A stretch of 64,000 bases of DNA from Paludisphaera borealis (GTDB lineage Bacteria; Planctomycetota; Planctomycetia; Isosphaerales; Isosphaeraceae), in contig NZ_CP019082.1 of assembly GCF_001956985.1 (NCBI RefSeq), forward strand, positions 682,001 through 746,000, given 5' to 3'. The position numbers and the translations under genes were made by a program. The first letter of the stretch is position 1. Each line of letters starts with the position of its first letter. Below are positions 49,680 to 50,056 of the stretch, piece after piece. The notes below the pieces were generated by a model that worked only from the letters and a program-made list of their open reading frames with translations, did not search any database and was not told where the DNA came from.

Positions 49680-50056
49680 TGCGGCCCGCAGGATTCGAAC
49701 CTGCAACCAAGGGATTCAAGTGCCCCCGCGTTTCCACGGGGCTTGGACTATCTCATCCTCGCCTGCGACGATCGAAACGGTTGCGTGGCGGTCGTTGACG
49801 GACCGCTTGACGTGACCGCCTCGAAGCATTCGAGGGAGGCCGGGCGCTCGAGGCGGGGATTATCGTTGGGACTCACCCCGCTAGTCTCTGAACCTTCCTG
49901 GCCACCAAAGCCCGGCCAGGCTTGGCTGCGGATCGCCGTGCCTCAAAACAGAGGTTTAGGTTTCCCGCAATTCACCCGGTTCGCATCCGAAGGTCGCCCT
50001 CCGGCGCCACCATTTTGGTTGATGAGTCCCCTGCTCTGCCGTTGAGCTAGGGCCGC
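49680..50056 (-). tRNA. tRNA with anticodon CAU (elongator Met or Ile2), interrupted by a group I intron
   Basis: Exon 1 is 50056-50022 and exon 2 is 49716-49680. Joined, they give 72 bases: acceptor GCGGCCC/GGGCCGC (all pairs), D-stem GCTC/GAGC, anticodon stem GGGGA/TCCCT with loop CTCATAA, T-stem GCAGG/CCTGC with loop TTCGAAT, discriminator A, and no encoded CCA. G1-C72 pairs, so it is not the initiator. The CUUGG after the loop resembles tRNA-Ile2 (whose C34 becomes lysidine), but elongator Met cannot be excluded. Such a gene would not be found by a search for uninterrupted tRNAs. It is transcribed leftward, towards the GT-C-like gene. Confidence 0.85.
49717..50021 (-). ncRNA. Group I self-splicing intron (305 nt) between U36 and A37 of tRNA(CAU)
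   Basis: The 5' exon ends CUCAU; its UCAU can pair with GUGG of the intron near 50011, giving the U-G wobble at the splice site. Core elements on the minus strand: P, AATTGCGGGAAACC (49961-49974); Q, GATCCGCAGCCAAGCC (49919-49934); R, GTTCAGAGACTAG (49881-49893); S, GATGAGATAGTCCAAG (49742-49757). P4 pairs UGCGG (in P) with CCGCA (in Q). P7 pairs GACUA (in R) with UAGUC (in S). A GCGGGG (49876-49881) to CCCCGC (49853-49858) stem fits P8. P9 is CCCCGUG-GAAA-CGCGGGG, a GNRA tetraloop. The last base is G before exon 2. No endonuclease gene is inside. Confidence 0.85.

Follow-up and report, generated by a model that had tools for sequence, protein, structure and literature searches.

The window, i.e. 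the whole 64-kb stretch of DNA that was analysed, covers positions 682001-746000 of chromosome C1 (7,497,544 bases) of Paludisphaera borealis (Planctomycetia, Isosphaerales; genome total 7,651,896 bases). On its minus strand, at positions 49680-50056, the tRNA(CAU) gene of this planctomycete is interrupted by a group I intron. The halves of the tRNA, 35 and 37 nt long, surround 305 nt and join into a perfect 72-base cloverleaf, exactly at the coordinates of the original prediction. The parts of the split gene are as follows:

50022..50056 (minus strand), 5' exon, tRNA-Ile2(CAU) positions 1-36 with U36 as its last base (bases 1-35 of the joined tRNA align at 100%)
49717..50021 (minus strand), group I intron, 305 nt, terminal G at 49717 (RF00028 match of 60.4 bits)
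49680..49716 (minus strand), 3' exon, tRNA-Ile2(CAU) from A37 to the discriminator A73, CCA not encoded (bases 36-72 of the joined tRNA, 100%)

The Rfam covariance model RF00028 matches positions 49724-50034 (E-value = 2.1e-14) over all 253 model positions. The score exceeds the curated gathering cut-off (50 bits), which bears out the predicted group I identity, and this is the sole Rfam match above gathering score within the window. The fold of the 379-nt RNA has a z-score of -3.8, with 1 of 100 shuffled sequences equally low. The interrupted gene is also, as had been expected, easily missed: ARAGORN without its intron mode reports zero tRNAs in the window, and the split gene is absent among the matches of the Rfam tRNA model on the whole genome. 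With its intron mode, ARAGORN recovers the gene and the 305-nt length, misplaces the split and calls Gln(TTG); the names given in this mode (Gln, Arg, Pro and others) were rejected, the loop being split at the wrong base. The P. borealis PX4T genome paper gives plasmids of 111,833 and 42,519 bp and 79 tRNA genes, and the word "intron" appears nowhere in its main text (PMC5352709).

The length of the intron is set by the cloverleaf. Its phase was first picked by requiring a U as the last base of the 5' exon and a G as that of the intron, which yields the loop CUCAUAA with the anticodon CAU and an insertion between U36 and A37, right after the third anticodon base. This phase is independently confirmed, since intact homologues in sister families carry the anticodon CAU. 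The interrupted gene encodes tRNA-Ile2(CAU), the reader of AUA. It has the CAU anticodon and an Ile2-like body, which we take to resemble that of E. coli tRNA-Ile2, and TilS is encoded in the same genome (167.7 bits against a cut-off of 93.6), as expected for a lysidine-type tRNA-Ile2. The original prediction was thus correct on the anticodon, and its tRNA(CAU) can now be refined to Ile2.

We aligned 30 of the 40 base-resolved Isosphaerales introns, with the structure drawn from the first sequence. The following elements were identified in the window intron:

50008..50024 (minus strand), P1: exon C-A-U with the guide GUG, a U-G wobble at the splice site and two extra pairs; all 30 introns keep the exon-guide pairs C-G, A-U and U-G unchanged
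49983..50007 (minus strand), P2 stem with the GNRA loop GCGA (49994-49997); 8 of 10 pairs changed on both sides, L2 a GNRA loop in 40/40
49840..49979 (minus strand), P3 (49975-49979 with 49840-49844); 100% paired, one compensatory pair
49926..49970 (minus strand), P4 (49965-49970 with 49926-49931), with P5 and its CCUAA receptor-like loop inside; from the alignment, CCUAA in 35/40
49893..49925 (minus strand), P6 and P6a; 4 of 6 P6a pairs changed on both sides
49745..49888 (minus strand), P7 (49882-49888 with 49745-49750) with the expected guanosine-binding G-C pair; invariant in 30/30
49853..49881 (minus strand), extra P7.1-like hairpin between P7 and P3; from the alignment, in 39/40 introns
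49757..49839 (minus strand), P8 with a variable extension; from the alignment
49718..49744 (minus strand), P9.0 (49742-49744 with 49718-49720) and P9 (49724-49741) with a GAAA loop (49731-49734); P9.0 outer pair covarying, GGAAAC in 40/40

The original description holds for the P, Q, R and S elements, for P4, P7 and the GAAA-capped P9, and for the U-G pair and the terminal G; across the 30 introns, base pairing preserves the P3-P8 core with its P, Q, R and S elements. Over the whole alignment 98.4% of 1920 cells are paired, against 93.3% for shuffled sequences and 33-49% when the partners are slid, and both partners have changed in 22 of 64 pairs (10.4 in the shuffled alignments). P7, P8 and P4 (apart from one of its pairs) show no variation and lie outside the reach of this covariation test. 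The splice sites are marked by the U-G pair (30/30), the P9.0 outer pair (A-U in 21 introns, G-C in nine) and the terminal G, the U and G of the borders having also served to pick the phase. RNAalifold, run without the drawn structure, recovers most of the same helices. Its pairing of the 5' exon segment GGACU with the 3' strand of P7 was set aside; the program cannot draw the P3-P7 pseudoknot. Among the 40 resolved introns the length ranges from 252 to 416 nt, and P5, short in P. borealis, reaches about 100 nt in relatives, as judged by length. Three ORFs overlap the window intron, none with a Pfam match at E-values up to 1.

A genome-wide search with the joined tRNA matches its own two halves only, so that no second intact tRNA(CAU) of this type was found in P. 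borealis, in keeping with the original prediction. All 68 Rfam tRNA-model matches of the genome were fetched and typed. Other CAU tRNAs among them are two initiator-like ones (L011, L012), one elongator Met and one degenerate copy inside a tRNA array (L089, 8517-8587); the remaining isoleucine tRNAs carry the anticodon GAU, and no tRNA-Ile(UAU) was seen. The degenerate copy retains a small chance of serving as an Ile2 substitute. The array itself (C1:1528144-1530277; L089, 8145-10277) packs more than 20 divergent tRNA genes into about 2 kb, an arrangement also known from certain mobile elements.

The intron is not peculiar to P. borealis. In a sample of 45 Isosphaerales genomes, all of one family, the Ile2 gene is split in 41 (40 base-resolved, and G015, where the split is evident at a contig end), and its exons show little or no difference across the order. 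Four genomes gave no verdict: the Ile2 gene was not found in G009, G027 and G035, and G044 shows its first 25 nt at a contig end. An intact Ile2 gene was found in none of the 45, all weaker matches of the joined gene having been typed as Arg, Lys(CTT), Leu or their neighbours, with one elongator-Met-like CAU tRNA in G024. The uninterrupted tRNA sought in related genomes lies just outside the order. All 30 sister-family loci that were fetched, a non-random set with the top 15 from each of two families, have it with the anticodon CAU, the closest being 97% identical to the joined gene. The joined tRNA has no match at all in 8 of the 57 genomes of these two families, and in the family f3 at least G168 and G281 carry an Ile2-like gene of their own, split at a different position.

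The intron-bearing tRNA lies near a fatty acid desaturase gene in 30 of the 40 loci, and another neighbour recurs in 24. In the window, this desaturase gene (Pfam PF00487; 50233-51195, minus strand) adjoins the tRNA, a place conserved across the order. On a tree of the 40 introns the genus labels need 18 changes, a number as low in none of 200 shuffles; 10 of the 37 inner branches are well supported, the program issued a long-branch warning, and neither of the genera g13 and g6 forms a single clade. The shared gene neighbourhood and the genus-clustered tree suggest one old insertion followed by vertical descent, which would be the simplest reading of these sequences.

Searching for the 3' end of the intron followed directly by the 3' exon of an Ile2 gene yielded at least 119 stretches in named genomes. 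The matches listed come mostly from beta- or gammaproteobacteria; a few are Isosphaeraceae, and there is one Opitutia as well as one Actinomycetes MAG. A CUCAU 5' exon lies 150-500 nt upstream in 89 of the at least 119 stretches (80 outside planctomycetes, nine planctomycete records), and none was recovered for the other 30. The intron tree, motif counts and profile search used the first 80 loci, in which 54 non-planctomycete introns were resolved. The resulting 73-intron tree, which samples 16 of the 40 Isosphaerales introns and 18 of the 39 of the largest group, places the 16 in one clade (100/99). On the Isosphaerales side are proteobacterial introns that are not Azoarcus-like and two planctomycete tRNA-Asn introns. 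Azoarcus-like introns lie across a split of 89/100, below the level that the program stars, and do not group with the Isosphaerales by sequence. The label "Azoarcus-like" stands for a motif that we presume to be typical, set on loci other than Azoarcus genomes. The Isosphaerales profile reaches at most 80.8 bits with a betaproteobacterial intron, 67.9 bits with a tRNA-Asn intron and 13.2 bits with an Azoarcus-like one (L229). Judged by these comparisons, the planctomycete introns appear as a branch distinct from the proteobacterial tRNA-Ile(CAU) introns.

The Azoarcus tRNA-Ile(CAU) intron is a subgroup IC3 intron of about 205 nt at the same U36/A37 site, IC3 being defined by GNRA loops on P2 and P9 with their receptors and by the absence of the P5abc domain. 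The P. borealis intron resembles it in the tRNA, the site, the CAU-GUG P1, the GNRA loops of P2 and P9, the CCUAA receptor-like P5 and the lack of an endonuclease. In contrast, it is about 300 nt long, has a different P4 sequence and possesses the extra hairpin between P7 and P3, which is missing in 7 of 9 loci with an Azoarcus-like R motif by a loose test. The intron thus sits where the Azoarcus intron does and presumably works like it, and the tree split and the low profile score indicate that it is not a close relative. An origin from pre-tRNA-Ile is on record for the Azoarcus group I intron (PMC3984707).

The nearest introns by profile, those of Lysobacter, Dyella, Variovorax and other beta- and gammaproteobacteria, occupy the same site of tRNA-Ile(CAU), and the extra hairpin is also present in 44 of the 45 non-Azoarcus-like proteobacterial introns examined. 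The Isosphaerales intron differs from the Lysobacter/Dyella/Variovorax type in P4 (UUCAGG/CCUGAG instead of UUGCGG/CCGCAG) and in the R element (GUGC instead of GUUC); this motif comparison is descriptive, the motif-cut segments being misplaced in several introns and kept out of the tree. The tRNA-Leu(UAA) intron of cyanobacteria and plastids lies at position 34/35. It interrupts another tRNA at another position, and planctomycete tRNA-Leu(UAA) introns at 34/35, which exist in the class, fall in a different part of the 73-intron tree. The cyanobacterial/plastid intron is likewise a group I intron of a tRNA anticodon loop (PMC4033280).

The occupation of the same site in many proteobacteria, indicative of a hot site, and the poorly resolved middle of the 40-intron tree would also fit repeated independent invasions of this site in different Isosphaerales. 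We consider this very unlikely in view of the single clade formed by the sampled introns, the gene neighbourhood shared by 30 of the 40 loci, the genus clustering and the fact that no empty-site genome was seen among the 45. About as improbable is an actively mobile intron whose homing endonuclease comes from elsewhere: other group I introns do occur in tRNA and rRNA genes across the class, but the intron is present order-wide at one site with a vertical signal, and the overlapping ORFs, which were those of the window intron only, match no Pfam family. Finally, the idea that the intron is a degenerate relic in a dead gene, with AUA read by another tRNA, could draw on the rarity of AUA in the genes checked and on the degenerate CAU tRNA of the array, but is hardly credible given that TilS is retained, that neither tRNA-Ile(UAU) nor an intact Ile2 was found in the genome, and that near-identical exons together with compensatory changes throughout the ribozyme reveal selection on both.

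We thus favour, with a probability of about 0.94, the reading that the sole tRNA-Ile2(CAU) gene of P. borealis is split by a self-splicing group I ribozyme that descends from an old, inherited insertion. The anatomy, the covariation, the distribution, the absence of an intact copy and the conserved neighbourhood are observed directly in the sequences. The whole stretch would be transcribed as a precursor tRNA, in which the guide GUG would pair with the exon CAU, the U-G pair defining the 5' splice site. An exogenous guanosine, docked in P7, would cleave at this point; the freed 3' end at U36 would then attack after the last G of the intron, placed by P9.0, joining the exons. The mature tRNA would receive its CCA tail, have C34 converted to lysidine by TilS, be charged and read AUA. 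The insertion was presumably present in the common ancestor of the sampled Isosphaerales and has since been passed down with the gene. Splicing, and efficient splicing as originally proposed, would be expected in this scheme. Selection for its efficiency could be weak, because AUA is rare in seven hand-picked window ORFs (2 of 149 isoleucine codons).

Group I introns in bacterial tRNA genes have been described for cyanobacteria, alpha- and betaproteobacteria (PMC4033280). The tRNAscan-SE 2.0 paper mentions 36 genomes without an fMet or Ile2 gene owing to group I introns, naming Acidovorax and Burkholderia for Ile2 (PMC8450103). In the open-licence literature, searched by title and start of abstract, we found no paper treating planctomycete group I or self-splicing introns, although Supplementary File S5 of tRNAscan-SE 2.0 may include some. 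The word "planctomycete" is absent from the main text of the Hausner review and of the 2025 intron database paper. The original statement, that none was known to have been described in planctomycetes, fits these searches, with the same reserve about File S5. Among the matches listed, introns at this site of tRNA-Ile(CAU) are common in beta- and gammaproteobacteria; the novelty thus lies in the taxon. The point of interest is the order-wide fixation: group I introns are often called sporadic, and it is unusual to see one throughout an order inside what looks like a tRNA's single gene. The Isosphaerales are therefore well suited to studying the persistence of self-splicing introns.

A second group I intron of P. 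borealis, 300 nt long (C1:6204954-6205253), is inserted between U34 and U35 of another tRNA gene:

C1:6204915-6205287 (minus strand), split tRNA-Lys(UUU), the sole one found in the genome (L002, L109)

This intron scores only 25.3 bits with RF00028. Its profile matches planctomycete 23S rRNA introns (E-values down to 3.6e-12) and has no match to the Ile2 intron at E-values up to 1; by sequence it belongs to an unrelated lineage. Default tRNA finding missed both split genes in P. borealis, so for this order the tRNAs that decode AUA and AAA are probably missing from reported tRNA sets. The tRNA-Lys(UUU) gene is split in 36 of the 45 Isosphaerales genomes (35 resolved, G036 at a contig end), intact in four (G017-G020, genus g13; three typed) and was not found in five (G013, G016, G021, G025, G034). 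The intact genes equal the joined split sequence apart from a few bases (L110-L112). A tblastn comparison of the g13 tRNA-Lys neighbourhoods gave mostly short low-complexity matches, the clear one being that of the G020 upstream ORF against G001 and G002. These sequences point to a likely loss of the intron in genus g13, best placed for G020. Such an intron can be lost, as g13 shows for tRNA-Lys, whereas an intact tRNA-Ile2 was seen in no Isosphaerales genome. One might speculate that the Isosphaerales rely on a pair of unrelated self-splicing introns, in their AUA and AAA tRNAs, retained throughout the history of the order because guanosine-dependent splicing couples the supply of these tRNAs to the nucleotide state of the cell; we regard this idea as unlikely.

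Other Planctomycetia carry group I introns (L081-L088, L128-L155) in tRNA-Leu(UAA) at 34/35, tRNA-Asn(GUU) at 35/36, tRNA-Arg(CCU) at 36/37, initiator-like and Ile2-like CAU tRNAs at 33/34, and 16S and 23S rRNA genes, their splice phase being set by the U/G border rule. Outside Isosphaerales they were seen in at least 30 of 261 genomes, in a survey with stricter filters and at most six candidates scored in most genomes, which overlooked even the P. borealis tRNA-Lys intron. This shows that many tRNA anticodon loops and rRNA genes of the Planctomycetia have been colonised by group I introns.

A gene for a 525-aa phage-type integrase (C1:6203428-6205006, L109) adjoins the split tRNA-Lys, and a duplicated tRNA-Lys 3' end lies 73 kb away (C1:6131161-6131205, L108). 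A 73-kb integrated element with the tRNA-Lys 3' exon as its attachment site is probable. Extra tRNA-Lys 3' halves also occur in G006, G020, G028, G029 and G030.
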